The notes below the pieces were generated by a model, which was not told where the DNA came from, did no database searches, and saw nothing but the letters and a program-made list of their open reading frames with translations. Below, piece after piece: positions 2,957 through 49,677 of a DNA stretch of 64,000 nt. Source of the DNA: Agroathelia rolfsii (Eukaryota; Basidiomycota; Agaricomycetes; Amylocorticiales; Amylocorticiaceae); assembly GCA_018343915.1 (NCBI GenBank), contig JABRWF010000003.1:5270001-5334000 (forward strand). The letters are read 5' to 3'. Position numbers and translations under genes: made by a program. Numbering within the stretch: the first letter of the stretch is position 1; each line of letters opens with the position of its first letter.

Positions 2957-3267
2957 AGCGGTCGCTGGCAGAGTCAGTTAGTAGGTTTATATGCTGGTGG
3001 TGGAACGGTGCAATAACGGTGATGCATGGTGGCCGTGTGTGTTTGTCCGCCCGCCGCTCCTTTCGTCCGTCAGATCCGTCTCCCGTCTCCGAGTCATTCT
3101 CAGCCTCTCAGTGATTATTGGTACCCGTGATCGTAATTTATGATAGCACAATGCAATGCCACTTATATATATATATATAGTTATAACCGAACAAATGAAC
3201 TTTGAATAGTAATTGAAGGCAATCATCTCAATCTATAGAAATAAAGGGACGCCATAACCACCAACCA
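2957..3267. other. Intergenic; left edge of the duplication
   Basis: No gene is seen. It holds a (TA)n microsatellite at about 3163-3179. From about 3012 the sequence (for example CATGGTGGCC and CTCCTTTCGTCCGTCAGATCC) recurs near 10590-10645, so the duplicated block begins here. Confidence 0.75.
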
Positions 3268-6200
3268 CTACTTGGAAGGCGTCTCATACTTCGACATGTC
3301 GGTGAAACGCTTCCAATGGCTTGCGTCCGAGTATTTCCCAGGCTCCTGAGACCTTCGGTTATCTTCTGAGCACTTGTCAAGACCCTTATATACACGCCCG
3401 TCCGGTTGCCAGCAATCCAAAAGGTCTCGCCAAGAGTTGATCTGATCCTCCCGAATCGGTCCCAACACCTTACCCGGATCAATCCCAGCGCACCAGAAAT
3501 CGTATGCGGTGTATGCAGGTTTCGCAGGTTTCGCAGGTTTCTTCTTCTTCTCATTGGTGCCTACACGCGAGTTGAGCGGCGAGTCATATATGAAGTTGGT
3601 GACACCCGAAATGGCGGATGCTAATGCAGCTACGATGCGGATGATAGGTAGTCCTCCGTGCTTGTAGTCTTTGTCATTGCGAGAGAATATCTTGAGATCG
3701 TAAGGATCCATGGAGTCAAAAAGATGTGCCTGTGGTGCTCTGGAAAATGATCGATCGTTCTTGACCTGAATCAAGATCGCTGATACGGTGTATTCGCCCA
3801 GGGTCTCATCGAGATAGACAAATGGGATGAGAAGATCGATTCCGGCTTGATTGTTGGGACATTCTGCTGCAGCGCCACGCACAATCATCCTCCACAAAAA
3901 GTCACGGGTTACAAGCCGAAAACTTGAGAGTTTGATCCAATGGTTGAAATACATCTTAGCATTCCTAAAAGCCTTCTTCAACGGTGTTGTGGAGTTAATC
4001 TTGTATTTGTTTTTAGGATGAACGCGAGATGGAATTGCATCGCAAATATTGAAAGATGATGGCGTAATCAGCTGCTCCAAGAAATCCACTAATTTCCATG
4101 CATATCCTCCATTAGATAGAGTAACCATATCGGAAGCTAGTGTAAGAAGGAGCTTCATCAGAGCTTCGCCACGCGGGCCCTTTTCAACATCAGGACGACG
4201 AAACTCATTAGCCAAGGCAGATGCAGGATCAAATTTCTTAGAATGCATGATCATTCGTGCTGCTTCAGCCAGGATTGGCTCAGATGGTGCGGCGGTGTCG
4301 ATGGCATAGAAATCAGGTGAGATTGTCTTGCATATACGCATATGCCTTTCGATGTGAGTCATCTGTCGTTTCCTAACTTGTGTGAGCGGTTGAAAATCCA
4401 GTCCCAGTCGGCAAGATAAGCATGCTAGAATTGCATCTTCATGTTTGGGTATGACAAAATGTACATGGCGCCAAGATTCAATGCCAAGTAGTTTTTGTGC
4501 TGCAAAGTCCAGGATAGTCTCTTTGTTAACATTGGAAAGGTTGTTGAATCGTGTTGCAAACCTATGGTCCAAGTATACTTTGAACTATGAATTATGGATA
4601 AATAAAGAAAAACAAACTTACAAAGGTCTACCAAGCTTAACTTGGAATTCAAGACATGCAATATCTTCTATCTTCATTTCGCTGTCGTTAACTGGCGATG
4701 CAAACCAGTCCAGGCCTAGATCAGTGAATGGTGCCATAAGTGTAAGATTGCCTTTGGCTATGCGCTCTGATGCCTCAGCTTCTTTAACAGGAGTGAATTC
4801 GAAAGTTGTTCCTAAGATCGACAAAAAAAGAGAGAAAATGCGTTGATCAAGTAGCTTTCGGAGCTGGCGTCGCAAACAGAAAAAGTATGATGGTGGTGCA
4901 AGTGTGTCCAACCTTGGCCTAGTATCTGTTGGCTCTACTGATGCATGTAGAGTATGTGCTTCGTCAAAAGACAGTATAACAATTGGTTGGATGGTATTTG
5001 TAGTTGAATCGTCAGAAGGGAAGGGAAGGAGGATTCTAACAAGCTGTTTTGCAGCATCTAAAAGCGTAATCTTCTCTGATGGTGTGTCCAGGGATGAAAC
5101 TGCTATCTTGACACTTTAGTCAAAAAGAAAAAAGACGGAAAGATAAGACAATTACGCACAACCAACACTCCATTCAATCATTGGGTCAGGTGAGGCCAGT
5201 AGCTTTCTGGTCTGTGGCAGAATTAGGCGGGAAGTCTGACCCTCTAGCTGTCGGGCACGCCTGATAACACTATCAAGAAAACCGATCCTATCCTGTGTAC
5301 GAGAACCAAAAGCTTGGCCCTTGGTCATAAAAGTCCGAAAGCGAGATGCAACGTCTTTAATCTCTACATCCTTGGATGGAAAATTAGCTTTGATCCAGTC
5401 AGCTGTGCACAAGAACAATGCTGTTAGAAATGCTTGGATGCGAGCATTTGCTTCCTCCTCTTTCTCTTTTTCTCGTAGGAAGTGCAGGACATCCGTATCG
5501 CTTGGAGGAAAGCCTAAGCAATAAATCATTCAAGTCAGGGACATAGACAAATACTGATGTCATTTTGCTAACCAGTATCATTGCCGCGTAAGCAAAGCGA
5601 AATCGTAAAGTGGGCCTTGCTCACTTCATCCACCAATCGTGATTTTCCCATGCCTGAGGACTGTATGATGGAACAGTACTTTGCATAGTTTCTCTCCTTC
5701 TGAGCCTTCCGACACATATCACTGATACGAGCCCAAAGGGCTTCATGGGTTTTTCCTTCATATTGAGTATCCCATGCAGAAACAGTAGCTATACAAAACT
5801 TGAGATTATATCCATGGAAAGCAATCAAGTACTGACCGTGCTCGGAGGCTTTCCTTGGTATTGTAGGATCCGGCTTTTCTGTCTGGATATTAAAAAGCGC
5901 TACAGAAAAAAAAAATTGGATACAATATTTTCATACTGATGTACAAACCAATGCTCACGTAGTCTAAGAAACTTCTTCAAGTCAAAAGCTGAAATTTCTG
6001 GCAAAATTCCAGCATAAAAATCGACAAATAGCTTCCTATCTGTGAGTCTGATTGTAGAGAGGTATTCGAAAGCATCGTCCTGAGTCTGACAATTTTCCTT
6101 CAACATGAGAATTTGGCTTCGAGTTAGTTTCTTGTTGTTTTCAATCGCTTTATATGTAAGCGCCAGGCAGATTGTTAAAAATCCCATAACCCACGGATTG

Positions 6201-10575: not shown

Positions 10576-10777
10576 ATAAATGGCGGTGGTGCATGGTGGC
10601 CATGTGTGTTGTCCGCCCGCTCCTTTCGTCCGTCAGATCCGTCTCACTCTCAACCTCTTGATGATCATTGCCATCACAGCGGAAGTGGGGCCATCAGTGG
10701 AGTCAGTGATAGAGCAATCCACTTCTACTTATATATACATGGTCATAACTGAATAAATAAACTATAACCACCAACTA

Positions 10778-13700
10778 CTACTTGGAAGGCGTCTCATACT
10801 TCGACATGTCAGTGAAACGCTTCCAATGGCTTGCGTCCGAGTATTTCCCAGGCTCCTGAGACCTTCGGTTATCTTCTGAGCACTTGTCAAGACCCTTATA
10901 TACACGCCCATCCGGTTGCCAGCAATCCAAAAGGTCTCGCCAAGAGTTGATCTGATCCTCCCGAATCGGTCCCCACACCTTACCCGGATCAATCCCAGCG
11001 CACCAGAAATCGTATGCGGTGTATGCAGGTTTCGCAGGTTTCGCAGGTTTCTTCTTCTTCTCATTGGTGCCTACACGCGAGTTGAGCGGCGAGTCATATA
11101 TGAAGTTGGTGACACCCGAAATGGCGGATGCTAATGCAGCTACGATGCGGATGATAGGTAGTCCTCCGTGCTTGTAGTCTTTGTCATTGCGAGAGAATAT
11201 CTTGAGATCGTAAGGATCCATGGAGTCAAAAAGATGTGCCTGTGGTGCTCTGGAAAATGATCGATCGTTCTTGACCTGAATCAAGATCGCTGATACGGTG
11301 TATTCGCCCAGGGTCTCATCGAGATAGACAAATGGGATGAGAAGATCGATTCCGGCTTGATTGTTGGGACATTCTGCTGCAGCGCCACGCACAATCATCC
11401 TCCACAAAAAGTCACGGGTTACAAGCCGAAAACTTGAGAGTTTGATCCAATGGTTGAAATACATCTTAGCCTTCCTAAAAGCCTTCTTCAACGGTGTTGT
11501 GGAGTTAATCTTGTATTTGTTTTTAGGATGAACGCGAGATGGAATTGCATCGCAAATATTGAAAGATGATGGCGTAATCAGCTGCTCCAAGAAATCCACT
11601 AATTTCCATGCATATCCTCCATTAGATAGAGTAACCATGTCGGAAGCTAGTGTAAGAAGGAGCTTCATCAGAGCTTCGCCACGCGGGCCCTTTTCAACAT
11701 CAGGACGACGAAACTCATTAGCCAAGGCAGATGCAGGATCAAATTTCTTAGAATGCATAATCATTCGTGCTGCTTCAGCCAGGATTGGCTCGGATGGTGC
11801 GGCGGTGTCAATGGCATAGAAATCAGGTGAGATTGTCTTGCATATACGCATATGCCTTTCGATGTGAGTCATCTGTCGTTTCCTAACTTGTGTGAGTGGT
11901 TGAAAATCCAGTCCCAGTCGGCAAGATAAGCATGCTAGAATTGCATCTTCATGTTTGGGTATGACAAAATGTACATGGCGCCAAGATTCAATGCCAAGTA
12001 GTTTTTGTGCTGCAAAGTCCAGGATAGTCTCTTTGTTAACATTGGAAAGGTTGTTGAATCGTGTTGCAAACCTATGGTCCAAGTATACTTTGAACTATGA
12101 ATTATGGATAAATAAAGAAAAACAAACTTACAAAGGTCTACCAAGCTTAACTTGGAATTCAAGACATGCAATATCTTCTATCTTCATTTCGCTGTCGTTA
12201 ACTGGCGATGCAAACCAGTCCAGGCCTAGATCAGTGAATGGTGCCATAAGTGTAAGATTGCCTTTGGCTATGCGCTCTGATGCCTCAGCTTCTTTAACAG
12301 GAGTGAATTCGAAAGTTGTTCCTAAGGTCGACAAAAAAAGAGAGAAAATGCGTTGATCAAGTAGCTTTCGGAGCTGACGGCGCAAACAGAAAAAGTATGA
12401 CGGTAGTGCAAGTGTTTCCGACCTTGGCCCAGTATCTGTTGGCTCTACCAATGCATGTAGAGTATGCGCTTCATCGAAAGACAGTAAAACAATTGGTTGA
12501 TTGGCATTTGTGATTGAAGTACCAGATGGGAAGGCAAGGAGAATAGCAATAAGCTGCTTTGTAGCATCTAAAAGCGTAATCTTCTCTGATGGCGTATTCA
12601 AGGATGGATCTACTATCTTGGCACTTTAGTCAAAAAGAAAAAGACGGGAAAATAAGATAAGTACGCACAACCAACATTCCATTCGATCATTAGGTCAGGT
12701 GAGGCTGGTAGCTTCTTGGTCCGTGGTGGGTTTGGGTGGGAAGTCTGACCCTCTAGCTGTCGGGCACGCCTGATAACACTATCAAGAAAACCGATCCTAT
12801 CCTGTGTACGAGAACCAAAAGCTTGGCCCTTGGTCATAAAAGTCCGAAAGCGAGATGCAACGTCTTTAATCTCTACATCCTTGGATGGAAAATTAGCTTT
12901 GATCCAGTCAGCTGTGCACAAGAACAATGCTGTTAGAAATGCTTGGATGCGAGCATTTACTTCATCCTCTTTCTCTTTTTCTCGTAGGAAGTGCAGGACA
13001 TCCGTATCGCTTGGAGGAAAGCCTGAGCAATAAATCACCCAAGTTAGTGACACAGACAGGTATAGGCTATATCACTTCCGCTAACCAGTATCATCACCAC
13101 GTAGGCAAAGCGAAATCATGAAGTGAGCCTTGCTCACTTCATCCACCAATCGTGATTTCCCCATACCTGAAGACTGTATGATTGAACAGTACTTTGCATA
13201 GTTTCTCTCCTTCTGAGCCCTCCGACACATATTGGTGATACGAGCCCAAAGAGCATTATGGGTTTCTCCTATATATTTAGCGTCCCATGCAGAAACAGTG
13301 GCTAGACAGGACTTGAGATCACATCCATAACAAGCAATTAGGTACTAACCGCGCTCGGATGCATTCCTTGATATTGTGGGATCAGGAACTTCTCCCTCAA
13401 CGATGAAAAAAGCTATTAAAAAAAAATCAGATACAACATTTTGAAACTCGAGTATAACCAAATACGCACGCAACATGAGGAATTTATCTAAACGAAAGAC
13501 TGAACCTTCTGGGAGAACGCTGGCGTAGAAATCAAGAAGCGTCCGTGTATCTTCCTGGCTGACACCCGAGAGGTAATTCATAATCTTCTTATATGTTTGA
13601 CAAACATTCTCCAAGGCAGAGCATTGGTATAAAGTGAGGTCCTTGCGGTTTCGAACTGTCTTATAAGTGATGTATAGGGCTTCCAACAAGAATGGCTCGG

Positions 13701-30560: not shown

Positions 30561-30597
30561 TCATGATCAAGAAGCGATAAACCAAAAAAGCGATTCA

Positions 30598-30680
30598 TGA
30601 CCACAGCAGGACTCGAACCTGCAGCCTTTTGGTTACGTCGGCAATCGAAGCCAAACGCGCTACCATTGCGCCATGTAGCC
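30598..30680 (-). tRNA. tRNA-Arg (anticodon TCG) with an 11-nt intron
   Basis: On the minus strand the acceptor stem GGCTACA pairs with TGTGGTC (two G-U pairs), discriminator A. The D stem GCGC/GCGC encloses AATGGTA. The anticodon stem TTTGG/CCAAA carries loop C-T-TCG-A, followed by an 11-nt insert (TTGCCGACGTA) at the canonical 37/38 intron site. The T arm GCAGG-TTCGAGT-CCTGC is perfect. A-box and B-box promoters are internal and intact. It decodes CGA (and CGG by wobble). Confidence 0.88.
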
Positions 30681-30855
30681 ATGTTATAAGCGTAGATTGT
30701 AGTTTTTATATTCGTATATTTTGCCCCCACCCCGGCTACTTGAGCTATCACCTGTTTTCGTCACTTTTGCCCAGGCTGATTTATGAAGCCAGGGACAACG
30801 AGCACTGGAAAGCTGCTGTTGCTGTTGCTGCTACTGCTCTAATAGCAAGAGGCCG

Positions 30856-39825: not shown

Positions 39826-42143
<2,318 letters not shown>

Positions 42144-45634: not shown

Positions 45635-46724
45635 CTAAAGTATAGGTATCACTAAGTCGTCCTCGACATGCACAGTCTTGTCCAAATCACCTGTGAAGCT
45701 ATGAGCCTTGGCCCACTCTTTCACATTGTCAAAATTGCGGCAGCTATGGATGACATCCATTCTGGGTCTAAATCGGCATGAGTTATCGCTACTTCGGAAA
45801 TAAAGATGTCACACACCCTAACTGCTGGCGCTCATCGTTCCATTGCCAGACCAATGGTGTAACGTCTACTGCGCACATTATACCTTGACGAAGATCTGGC
45901 TTGATGATTAATGCATCGCCGAACGAAAGAGAATTTGCATTTCTTACTGTCAATACAGTGATCTGTATGATCCTTCCAAAAAGCCTTCGGAACGCCGGCA
46001 ATGTCTCCCGTTTCTGGGTCAGTGTAATGCTCGGGATTTAGGCCCTGACGCAGTATATTCTACATGATATGTCAGAAGACGTTAGTTAAGAAACGCGACA
46101 TGAGCAGGCATACCAGGCAATGAAGCTGGTGAAAAGCAGAAAGTGAAATAACATAGTTATCTTGATCGCCTGGAACAGGGGATGTGTGATTCGCTAGAAG
46201 AGCAGCTTGAGATTTCGGTATTGTGATAATGTCTATGTCGAGCTTAGTTCAACTTCGAGGTCATGGCCGTGCTAGCAACTTACAATCGTAAAGTTCCTTC
46301 CATGCATTATCAGTTGCAGGCCCAGGCTCGCCTTCATAAATAGTTTTGCTTTCAACCCCTTTCGTGAATGTCTTCAGCTCCGGTTCCAGTACGTCTTGGG
46401 CAGGGGCTAAAGGCGTAGAAAATCAGTCCACTCTTGAACCTTGTCGCAGCATTCAATGATATACCCACAGTAGAGCACATAAGAAAAAGGGGCCCCCAGC
46501 CTGTTTGGAGAAGGATGACGTGTTTCAGTCCATAAAGCGCCAGAAAGGAGTACAATAACTAGGCTCTGTGCTACTAAAACGCCGGCTACCCAGACGTTGA
46601 CTCTACCCCTCAGTTTTGTTTTACCAGAGAGCTTTTCATGAAAGGCATTGGGCTCGACCTCTGGTACAACATCTGTTTCTAAGTCACCAGAAAACAGTGG
46701 TATGTACTCTGTATCGCGAGCCAT
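45635..46724 (-). CDS. UstYa-type (DUF3328) oxidase, RiPP-modifying candidate
   Basis: Six exons, about 273 aa, start MARDTEYIPLFSGD (46724), stop TAG at 45635. A single transmembrane helix lies at about residues 42-63 (VWVAGVLVAQSLVIVLLSGA). The lumenal part has LYSPAQDVLEPELKTF, then TIYEGEPGPATDNAWKELY, the first HxxHC motif (HQLHC in SAFHQLHCL), and a second HxxHC (HTDHC) followed across an intron by NLRQGIMCAVDVTPLVW. The end is HSCRNFDNVKEWAKAH. Both HxxHC motifs and the anchor define the UstYa/UstYb group. These copper-dependent-type oxidases cyclise Tyr-containing cores of Kex2-processed precursors (ustiloxin, phomopsin, asperipin). The gene is divergent from the repeat precursor, 1.6 kb away. 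All introns are phase-consistent and no defect was seen. Confidence 0.9.
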
Positions 46725-48346
46725 ATTTTTACTGTACGTAGACTGGGTCTGGGGAGTTTGGATTGTTAAGAGTCGATAAGACTTATGTGTCGCTGCTAAA
46801 GGAGCACTTTACAGCACAGGACTGCAGGGTCTTATCTGACACTTTCGACCCACATCAACCTGAATCATATGTACAGTACGGTTTCTGTTCGTCGGAAATC
46901 GTGTTAACCGCGGAAGAACTATATCATGCCTTTCAGGTTCCTTTTACTCACTGATAAAATCAGAGCGGGGCATGCGTAATTGCGCACGATGCATCTGTCA
47001 AACATGAAGTCCCTTGATCTATGTTGCCGAAGGTCGATAGTCATGCGGTGTTTCGAGAGACGCACTGTGTAAAATCCTCAGGCACTTGGTATAGTACCGG
47101 TTCCTAGATCGAACAACTGTCCGGGCTGACCCTCCGGAGAGAGTGATGGCCGTCAGACAAGGCGAGGAAAATTGATACCGAAACATTAAACGTGAATCCG
47201 GATTGAGAGTGTATGCTACTACGTATAGCACTACTAGTAGTCGTACGAATACTGTAATGGCCGTAATCCGAGTCGTCAGATCCAACTTCATACTACGGTC
47301 TTAACCTTGGATTTGAGTTGACGACAGTAGCAGTCACACAGAGGTGCTTCAGCTTTTACACGAGAAATATCATGACAGATGATTTCCAGGAACAAGACTC
47401 GGACTTTGAGTGAAGGATTTACATGTACAACCTAGCAAATGGCCAGCCACATCCATCAGCGCCACCTGCGCAAGCTCAAAGGATTGGTCACATGGCGGGA
47501 ATCAAAACATCTATCCCGAGTCATCAGTTCGCCCATGAGCAAGCAACAACGCCCATAGGTCATAAAACTCTGCTGAGGTCATGCATCTAACTGGATTTGG
47601 ACTCCTGCTGCTGAACCCCGATTGAAGTTGGCTTGGAGCCTGAGGTCCAGATATCTAGGTCTCCACTGGTGCTGGAATGATACTTAACTTCCTTATAGTA
47701 TCAGTAATATATTAACTCAGGCAATGCAAATATCCTACCATGCTGTATGATGGCCTATTAATCGCAGCTGTCAAGCCGAATGATGGCCCACTCTCTTTCG
47801 GTGACTGTTGCATGATATCACATAAGCTACTCATGTCGAATCCCATATACAGGAAGAAAAACACGTCAACGTATCTGTTCAATAGTTTCCCATGTTATAC
47901 GGGGTTAAACGGGGAAAAACCTTGCGTGAATCAAATGACTCCAATCCTTCAGATTTGACAATCACCCATCTAGCCCCTGTAGATATGCCCAAAGAACGCC
48001 CACTCATGTGCTGGCCTCGATAGAAACTGTATACATACCCTCATTGTAACCTATCAATGCCTGCTGGTGTACCTATCACGCATATGAGCTATTGCTTGAC
48101 TTGAACGACGCGCCGTGGATCCGGATACAACGACCGTTCAACCAGCAGCTTGACGTATCTTTCTCAATCTGCGGGTAGAATAATCACGTGTAGTCGCACG
48201 CCATTCTAGGGAACAAAAAAAACACTGGTTTCGAGAATGAAAAGGTATAAAAGGGAGAGGGATAGAACGACAGACGAGCAGCCAACCCAACCCGACTCGA
48301 CTTTTCTCTCCCCTTTTCTCTCCTCTCACATTTTTCTTGCACAAAC
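46725..48346. promoter_or_regulatory. Divergent intergenic region, UstYa gene and precursor gene
   Basis: 1.6 kb without a supported gene. The right end holds CACGTG (48185-48190), a bHLH-type E-box, then a TATA box, then a C/T-rich leader (CTCTCCCCTTTTCTCTCC) before the precursor ATG. A 90-codon minus-strand frame at 47019-47291 begins with a hydrophobic stretch but has no family match. Confidence 0.5.
48246..48252 (+). promoter_or_regulatory. TATA box of the precursor gene
   Basis: TATAAAA in the context GGTATAAAAGGG, 95 bp before the precursor ATG and followed by a pyrimidine-rich leader. This is the strongest core promoter I noticed in the window and suits an abundantly expressed, inducible secreted protein. 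Confidence 0.6.
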
Positions 48347-48948
48347 ATGAAACCGTCTTTCTTCACCTTCGTCCTCCTTGGACTTTTTGCTGGCCTTGCA
48401 TCTGCTATTCCAATGCCAGAACCTATCGTAAGTCACTTACCTGCCGGCTATCATGTAACACTGCTGAGCGCGTTAAAAAGCCCGAGGATCTTGAGATTAC
48501 CCTTAAGCAACCCTATAAACGGGACGACCTCGATATCACCCTCACTAAGCCCTACAAGCGCGAAGACCTCGACATCACTCTCACCAAGCCCTACAAGCGC
48601 GAAGACCTCGACATCACTCTCACCAAGCCCTATAAGCGCGACGACTTGGACGTCACCCTCAAGCAACCCTACAGGCGCGATGACCTGGATATTACGCTGA
48701 AGCAGCCCTACAAGCGTGATGACCTTGACATCACTCTCAAGCAGCCCTACAAGCGCGAGGATTTGGATATCACACTTAAACAGCCGTATAAGCGTGATGA
48801 TCTCGACATCACTCTCAAGCAGCCTTACAAACGCGAAGACTTGGAAATCACGTTGAAGCAGCCTTACAAGCGTGATGATCTCGATATCACTCTCAAGCAG
48901 CCCTACAAACGCGAAGACTTGGATGTCACGCTCAAGCAGCCTTACTAA
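48347..48948 (+). CDS. Secreted Kex2-processed repeat precursor, putative RiPP (dikaritin-like) precursor
   Basis: Two exons, 48347-48427 and 48469-48948, split by a 41-nt intron (GTAAGT...TGAG), give 186 aa. Exon 1 is a signal peptide, MKPSFFTFVLLGLFAGLASA, then IPMPEPI. Exon 2, after RVKKP, holds twelve copies of an 11-residue core with consensus [DE]DL[DE][IV]TL[KT][QK]PY. Copies are separated by KR (RR once, after copy 5). The last core ends on Tyr directly before TAA. This layout (signal, dibasic Kex2 sites, near-identical cores ending in an aromatic residue) is that of ustiloxin- and phomopsin-type precursors. Unspliced reading of exon 1 leaves frame, so splicing is needed. Expected products are linear or Tyr-crosslinked undecapeptides. 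An alternative is an unmodified KEP such as a repellent or pheromone-like peptide. I do not recognise the core. Confidence 0.92.
48484..48945 (+). repeat. 39-nt tandem repeat, 12 copies (core peptide array)
   Basis: Copy n begins at 48484 + 39(n-1). Each encodes 11 core residues plus a two-residue cleavage site; the last lacks the site. Core variants: copies 2-4 carry TLTKPY, the others TLKQPY. DD and ED starts alternate from copy 7 to 12, giving a 78-nt higher-order period. Many third positions differ (CTC, TTG, CTT for Leu). Confidence 0.97.
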
Positions 48949-49677
48949 GCATGTGATTTTACACCTGGTAAGATTTTTCTTTTCTTTTTTCCCTGCCGTG
49001 TAATTTGAATTTGAAATTAATTTAATATTTAGCATCCAACTATTCAGTGCAATCGTAAATGCTGCAGTGTCCATGTAGTGCTCGGATCATTGGGCCGGAT
49101 GGCATGAAGGATACGTTAATACGCAAGAACGAATAGATCATTTTTTTCTCAACTGTGTTATGGTATGAATATTCAAAGAGGTTGGATTATGTGCTCGAGA
49201 TCAGTCCATGCAGTGCGCACATAGACAAGATGATTCATTACGTTCTTTAAGTCCGCCTCTGTAGGCAGCTCTACAGGCGCAAGGACTCGCAACCTCACTA
49301 AGCCCACAGTGATGCCGCCCGTCGTTTCTTTTTCTTACTGGGAATGATAGAACGACTGGACTTTCCTTTCTCAGTTATGATCAATATGATGCTATTCCGA
49401 AATTCCAGTGGTTGTATATTTAATTGCTGCTAGTGAAAGAGTCACGGCCATAACCGCAGATTATTGTCCAGTCTAATAAGATACATATAAGCCAACCATA
49501 CAAATTAAGCCAGCATCATGTCTTCAGCAACGAAACAACAATCTCATTATCGTAGAATCCATCAAAACGTAAGTATGCATCTAATTCTATCATCTGAGAA
49601 AGAAAAGAAAAGAAATAAATACGAGAAAATCCTAAATTCGAAAGAAAGGTTTAATAAGAAAGAAAGAAAAAGGAAGA
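48949..49677. other. 3' region of the precursor gene
   Basis: T-rich stretch at 48975-48990. A short frame at 49518 (MSSATKQQSHYRRIHQN) ends at a GTAAGT, but no continuing exon was found, so it is not annotated. A/G-rich 49595-49680. Confidence 0.5.

Follow-up and report, generated by a model that had tools for sequence, protein, structure and literature searches.

A twelve-core repeat precursor gene head to head with a UstYa oxidase gene in Agroathelia rolfsii: a probable dikaritin-type RiPP locus

The precursor gene and its repeated cores

The analysed stretch of DNA (the window) comprises 64,000 nucleotides of contig JABRWF010000003.1, hereafter contig 3, of the basidiomycete Agroathelia rolfsii (assembly GCA_018343915.1, positions 5,270,001 to 5,334,000 of the forward strand). 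It carries a two-exon gene for a small repeat precursor at 48347-48948 on the plus strand, the product of which has 186 residues in the 41-nt intron form and the stop codon of which ends at 48948. The following features were modelled:

48246-48252, plus strand: TATAAAA, 94 bases 5' of the precursor ATG, with a CT-rich stretch after it; judged by eye to resemble a promoter
48347-48427, plus strand: precursor exon 1, with the ATG at 48347, predicted signal peptide and start of the propeptide, MKPSFFTFVLLGLFAGLASAIPMPEPI
48428-48468, plus strand: precursor intron (GTAAGT...CTGAG), 41 nt as modelled
48469-48948, plus strand: precursor exon 2, encoding RVKKP and then twelve cores with KR or RR spacers, ending in PY-stop
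48484-48945, plus strand: array of twelve 11-residue cores, from the core list and TRF

The original prediction had described a signal peptide followed by twelve cores of the form [DE]DL[DE][IV]TL[KT][QK]PY, with KR or RR between them and the Tyr of the last core at the stop, and this architecture was confirmed from the sequence. Exon 1 was judged by eye to encode a signal-peptide-like start, and its ATG was the only one between 42.2 and 51 kb, on either strand, to pass a simple hydrophobicity scan, which served as a stand-in for a dedicated signal-peptide predictor and is blind to starts cut by an intron within the first codons. The repeat was independently reported by TRF as a 39-bp array at 48505-48950. 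Alternative acceptors ending at 48480 (53-nt intron) or 48486 (59-nt intron) likewise keep the frame. In the 41-nt form, RVKK with its dibasic KK precedes the first core, the released form of which would be PEDLEITLKQPY; a dibasic site ahead of the first core is missing from the 53-nt form and likewise from the 59-nt form, which also loses the first residue of that core. For comparison, the five introns of the neighbouring UstYa gene measure 49-62 nt as modelled. In the exon-per-core precursors described below, an RR is located at the end of the leader exon or spans this end, and the predicted 41-nt intron is thus a possible form that is mildly favoured over the 53- and 59-nt forms.

The twelve cores fall into seven distinct sequences. 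The commonest, DDLDITLKQPY (4/12), has a computed linear monoisotopic mass of 1319.661; EDLEITLKQPY and EDLDITLTKPY occur twice each, and DDLDITLTKPY, DDLDVTLKQPY, EDLDITLKQPY, and EDLDVTLKQPY once each. EDLDVTLKQPY is isobaric with the commonest core, and the masses computed for the other sequences are 1347.692, 1306.666, 1333.677, 1305.645, and 1292.650. The spacers consist of ten KR and one RR, so that a dibasic site follows 11 of the 12 cores, and the twelfth core runs directly into the stop, ending in Tyr. Six of the 11 core positions (D2, L3, T6, L7, P10, and Y11) are identical in all twelve copies, and the C-terminal Tyr11 is the sole aromatic residue of each core. Comparing each of the 12 cores with every other gave a mean identity of 76% on the nucleotide and 82% on the amino acid level, and the mean numbers of differences per pair at codon positions 1, 2, and 3 were 1.36, 0.41, and 6.06, respectively. 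The corresponding pS was 0.75 versus a pN of 0.10, with pS saturated so that dN/dS itself is unreliable for these cores. A third-position variation as high as that observed was reached in none of 100,000 column shuffles. The concentration of variation at third codon positions indicates that the peptide rather than the DNA is conserved and excludes recent DNA slippage; a chance repeat was rejected by the same codon-position test.

A search of the protein collection with the precursor revealed no relative, as none of 7,999 scored candidates reached an E value of 1, in agreement with the statement of the original prediction that the core matched none known to its author; to our knowledge, the core sequence is unlike the known ascomycete dikaritin and epichloecyclin cores. 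A search of the own genome matched this locus alone and yielded no second copy. The Pfam search with the precursor gave three sub-threshold matches (the best being FixH, with 19.9 bits versus a cut-off of 23), which were taken as composition noise. A strict in-frame scan for repeat precursors in the window, in 20 stretches containing UstYa genes, and in ten short loci revealed no second comparable array, its other matches being only basic low-complexity pieces (in loci L004 and L014 and at 41782-41871 of the window). When the criteria were relaxed for the window and the 20 UstYa stretches, one satellite-like frame (L013, 485-910) was added. Neither scan can recognise a precursor with intron-split cores; the precursors of this type described below were obtained from TRF rows, by eye, and by sequence search.

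The neighbouring UstYa gene and its surroundings

The precursor gene is located head to head with a gene of the UstYa family (DUF3328, PF11807), at an ATG-to-ATG distance of 1.6 kb and with both genes read outward. This gene and the other neighbours, the latter recognised in a Pfam scan of open frames, are:

45635-46724, minus strand: UstYa gene of 273 aa (PF11807, 165.8 bits, E = 1.7e-48)
46724-46469, 46406-46284, 46232-46114, 46059-45948, 45895-45817, and 45767-45635, minus strand: UstYa exons as modelled
46725-48346: intergenic region common to the head-to-head UstYa and precursor genes, from the gene coordinates
27.6-28.8 kb: nearest transporter-like frames, some 16-18 kb away (some 17 kb from the UstYa gene)
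36.1-37.0 kb: aldehyde dehydrogenase
41.0-42.2 kb: protein kinase
49.7-50.8 kb: gene without Pfam match
52.1-52.5 kb: lipoyl ligase fragment

A genome-wide search of frames with PF11807 listed 36 matches, the second best of which lies in the window (45946-46485, minus strand). The modelled gene is intact, running from an ATG at 46724 to a stop at 45635 through six exons and five GT-AG introns, and the spliced protein matches PF11807 over profile positions 9-220. It contains a hydrophobic stretch at about residues 43-63 (by eye) and two HxxHC motifs, HQLHC at residue 161 and HTDHC at residue 197. The protein was aligned with 31 of 32 database hits, the short hit P0031 being excluded, and across these 32 proteins H161, H164, C165, H200, and C201 are invariant and H197 is conserved in at least 90%. 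One database relative has 273 residues, is 92% identical end to end, and originates from contigs of at most 1,572 bases. As a genomic contig would include introns, it was read as the spliced transcript of a close relative, from which we infer support for the exon model of the UstYa gene and for expression in that relative. Four further hits scored between this protein and the five nearest species-named hits, which are from Steccherinum ochraceum, Cerrena zonata (two), Panus rudis, and Cristinia sonorae. According to a taxonomy look-up, Steccherinum, Cerrena, and Panus belong to the Polyporales and Cristinia to the Agaricales; the nearest named relatives thus are Agaricomycetes and mostly Polyporales. 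More distant hits include ascomycetes. A profile search of the PDB found no solved relative, the single match having an E value of 0.82.

In the intergenic region, no ATG passed the signal-peptide scan. The matches of two genome searches were merged by hand into 30 UstYa places; sequence no more than 1.7 kb from one of these makes up about 0.28% of the genome, a figure that was calculated after the fact. Among the neighbouring genes, neither the kinase, the aldehyde dehydrogenase, the lipoyl ligase, nor the gene without Pfam match is an evident tailoring partner, and a Pfam scan of 19 distinct frames in the neighbourhood revealed no methyltransferase or P450. This absence of tailoring enzymes is provisional because the scans used single open frames, unspliced and for some frames only. 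Clusters of the ustiloxin/phomopsin subtype include a tyrosinase and an S41-type peptidase. Tyrosinase had no match in the window or in the frames of the rest of the genome, in a search that matched no control either. The S41 peptidase search, in which frames were read regardless of introns, found no match in the frames of this genome and matched 10 of 14 control genomes. The kexin P-domain is present at two places in the genome. In the case of cyclochlorotine, UstYa proteins act together with an NRPS; the two condensation-domain places listed for the genome are on contigs 1 and 2, and contig 3 has none among those listed. The window furthermore contains a 2.7-kb direct duplication (3254-5951 and 10764-13461, 94.3% identical) with long minus-strand frames, two of which were tested and had no Pfam match, and a tRNA-Ser (CGA) predicted by ARAGORN at 30597-30681 on the minus strand.

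Precursor and UstYa pairs elsewhere in the genome

A precursor with one core per exon was modelled on contig 4 (394242-395250, plus strand; L012:7243-8251), within a cluster containing four UstYa places. The gene consists of a 78-nt leader exon, six phase-0 core exons of 66 nt that carry one core apiece (e.g., REELETESEDTKYGYTVTVENK), and a short last exon. Six of its seven introns, namely all six after core exons, start with GC, the first intron starts with GT, and the KR site arises only at the exon joints. A shorter exon-per-core relative with three 66-nt core exons is located between UstYa places on contig 5 (3945547-3946122, minus strand; L013:8123-7548), and the two genes have a similar leader (MKLY...LLGL.A.AMALPQ). 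Three small secreted genes (386014 and 387938 on contig 4 and 3872323 on contig 5, in L011, L012, and L015) resemble them, by eye, in their leader and carry one Tyr-containing core each, e.g., ...EDWYVEFGYKR-stop; the edges of these hits lie about 1.5-1.6 kb from a UstYa match.

Searching the genome with the exon-per-core protein gave 13 hits among the best candidates listed (limit E 10), all of which lie in UstYa clusters. They were read as five genes, and by subtraction the hit edges and the closest UstYa match are separated by about 1.5-1.9 kb. Three of these genes are based on weak hits (E values of 0.002, 0.005, and 0.24) and reading by eye. Against the protein collection, the exon-per-core precursor had no hit among 8,000 scored candidates, and its splice model is without outside support. 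Genome searches with either precursor type did not connect the two, and thus no homology with the window precursor is claimed. Judging from these genes, the pairing of a small secreted precursor with a UstYa gene seems to be a recurrent arrangement in this fungus, and the occurrence of a second precursor family in UstYa clusters lends independent support to the view that precursor/UstYa adjacency is meaningful. On contig 2, two pairs of UstYa matches have equal scores and opposite orientation (1966834-1969023 with 1992456-1994645, and 2092135 with 2188269), suggesting inverted duplications of UstYa genes.

Proposed pathway and alternative explanations

DUF3328/UstYa is the class-defining enzyme of dikaritin RiPPs (as cited in PMC12048977). 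The original prediction had linked the precursor to this class by its design. The precursor alone is insufficient for this assignment, since a DUF3328 gene within 15 genes is lacking for most of the Kex2-processed repeat proteins (KEPs) counted in basidiomycetes, and four Agaricomycetes yielded only linear or minimally modified peptides. With a complete UstYa gene 1.6 kb away, which the prediction did not include, the dikaritin reading is supported and becomes the best one. We therefore consider it probable that the adjacent UstYa oxidises the cores in some way and that both genes constitute a small dikaritin-type RiPP pathway. This reading is favoured by the precursor architecture, the core conservation, the complete UstYa gene, the kexin places, and the second precursor family. 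It also has a counterpart in asperipin-2a of Aspergillus flavus, whose secreted precursor likewise has several cores that contain Tyr and are flanked by Kex2 sites and whose cluster has one UstY gene and no peptidase gene (PMC12048977, PMC7329392), and it agrees with the report that Tyr-containing cores are commoner near DUF3328 genes (65.6% versus 38.2%; PMC7329392). Against it counts that a transporter, which is among the further genes of the asperipin-2a cluster (PMC12048977), was not recognised beside the precursor/UstYa pair. Umemura moreover suggested that KEPs may scarcely be cyclized in Basidiomycota, or may depend there on a different cyclization factor (PMC7329392).

In the proposed pathway, the precursor would enter the secretory pathway via its signal peptide. 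In the Golgi, as can be expected from the enzyme families (PMC9769878, PMC7329392), kexin would cut after each KR or RR and a Kex1-type carboxypeptidase would trim the basic residues, so that as many as twelve acidic 11-mers with seven different sequences would presumably be set free. UstYa probably is anchored in the membrane and exposes its catalytic domain to the lumen, and its HxxHC pair may form a lumen-facing binuclear copper site of the kind reported for the related CctR (PMC12435403). Judging from adjacency and family, the enzyme would then oxidise the cores. Because each core has a single aromatic residue, the invariant Tyr11, the likeliest reaction would be an ether link of this residue, i.e., the loss of two hydrogens with the phenol oxygen of Tyr11 being joined to an upstream aliphatic carbon. 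Ile/Val5, Leu7, or Leu3 are candidate partners, the choice among which is a guess. By analogy, the product may be a secreted defence or competition compound.

Several alternatives have to be weighed against this pathway. The first overlaps with it and takes up a minor share of its probability: UstYa may modify the cores without macrocyclization, by hydroxylation, dehydrogenation, or halogenation of a side chain. Dehydroamino acids are reportedly installed by UstYa family proteins in a study on phomopsin, which counts for such a modification. So does the finding, which also counts against a Tyr crosslink, that DUF3328 enzymes hydroxylate and halogenate, the same-family CctR being a hydroxylase and ApnU a halogenase (PMC12435403). 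Ustiloxins, asperipin-2a, and phomopsins, in contrast, derive from repeat precursors with DUF3328 proteins and are cyclized via Tyr ether bonds (PMC7329392), the asperipin-2a cluster having a single such gene (PMC12048977), and the invariant Tyr of the window cores fits an ether link.

It is unlikely, if not to be dismissed lightly, that the precursor is an ordinary KEP from which Kex2 and Kex1 release linear 11-mers as signals or for biotic interactions, with the UstYa next door acting elsewhere. In four Agaricomycetes, the KEP peptides observed to date have been linear or minimally modified, with one core ending in -EPY, and six kep knockouts in Coprinopsis are described as being without phenotype in culture (PMC9769878). 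In a survey of 1,461 fungal strains, a DUF3328 gene within 15 genes was recorded for only 103 of 1,680 basidiomycete KEPs (PMC7329392). Here, however, the neighbour is an intact head-to-head UstYa gene, in a genome of which only the small fraction given above is that near a UstYa place, the precursor ATG alone passed the signal-peptide scan between 42.2 and 51 kb, and the single Tyr is kept in every core.

It is very improbable that the gene encodes a secreted, repetitive protein of structural or wall function, in which the KR sites would either be incidental or yield repellent-like peptides as in Rep1 of Ustilago. Kex2-cut peptides affecting the hyphal wall do exist in basidiomycetes, but those of Rep1 have 37 residues (PMC6339444) as opposed to the Asp/Glu-rich 11-mers encoded here, which are followed by a dibasic site in 11 of 12 cases and adjoin a peptide-oxidase gene. 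The idea of a chance repeat or non-coding satellite, to which the array being open on the reverse strand too (an ORF of 207 codons) might point, has practically no weight given the third-position variation in the plus-strand frame and the signal peptide and donor site directly upstream of the array.

Compared with asperipin-2a, the dikaritin-type pathway proposed for A. rolfsii differs in its basidiomycete host, its acidic 11-residue core with one C-terminal aromatic residue, and the distance of the nearest transporter-like frames. The precursor has the signal peptide, the repeats, and the dibasic sites in common with those of ustiloxin, phomopsin, victorin, and gigA, and DUF3328-type oxidation would be expected here as well, whereas no methyltransferase or P450 accompanies it among the neighbouring frames scanned. 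Victorin, which is cyclised between the side chain of its C-terminal Phe and an internal Leu (PMC9233826), would be the nearest analogue to a link of the C-terminal Tyr. The KEPs of Agaricomycetes, which average 5.30 per strain in basidiomycetes (PMC7329392), have the same precursor design and probably belong to the same class as the window precursor, which differs from those yielding linear peptides by its DUF3328 neighbour. A more specific picture can be put forward tentatively, as a possibility of some substance: a pathway reduced to a divergent precursor/oxidase pair, in which one copper oxidase would tie the C-terminal Tyr onto an acidic 11-mer in a ring pattern not found among the dikaritins compared. 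The pair would belong to a wider set of precursor/UstYa pairs, some of which have one core per exon and acquire the Kex2 site only after exon joining, so that splicing could set the number of cores.

The kind of locus described here is already known, as the 2020 survey lists basidiomycete repeat precursors with DUF3328 neighbours (PMC7329392), and Pleurotus ostreatus is reported to have 16 UstYa-like genes, six of which are developmentally expressed (PMC8893723). Among the literature matches listed, which comprised titles and abstracts with subscription papers mostly outside, there was no basidiomycete for which a UstYa product had been characterized, and no one-core-per-exon precursor either. 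With its twelve high-copy cores and their calculable masses, the head-to-head pair of A. rolfsii would offer a simple test case for whether basidiomycetes make UstYa-crosslinked peptides, a matter addressed by the survey and the mushroom work (PMC7329392, PMC9769878).
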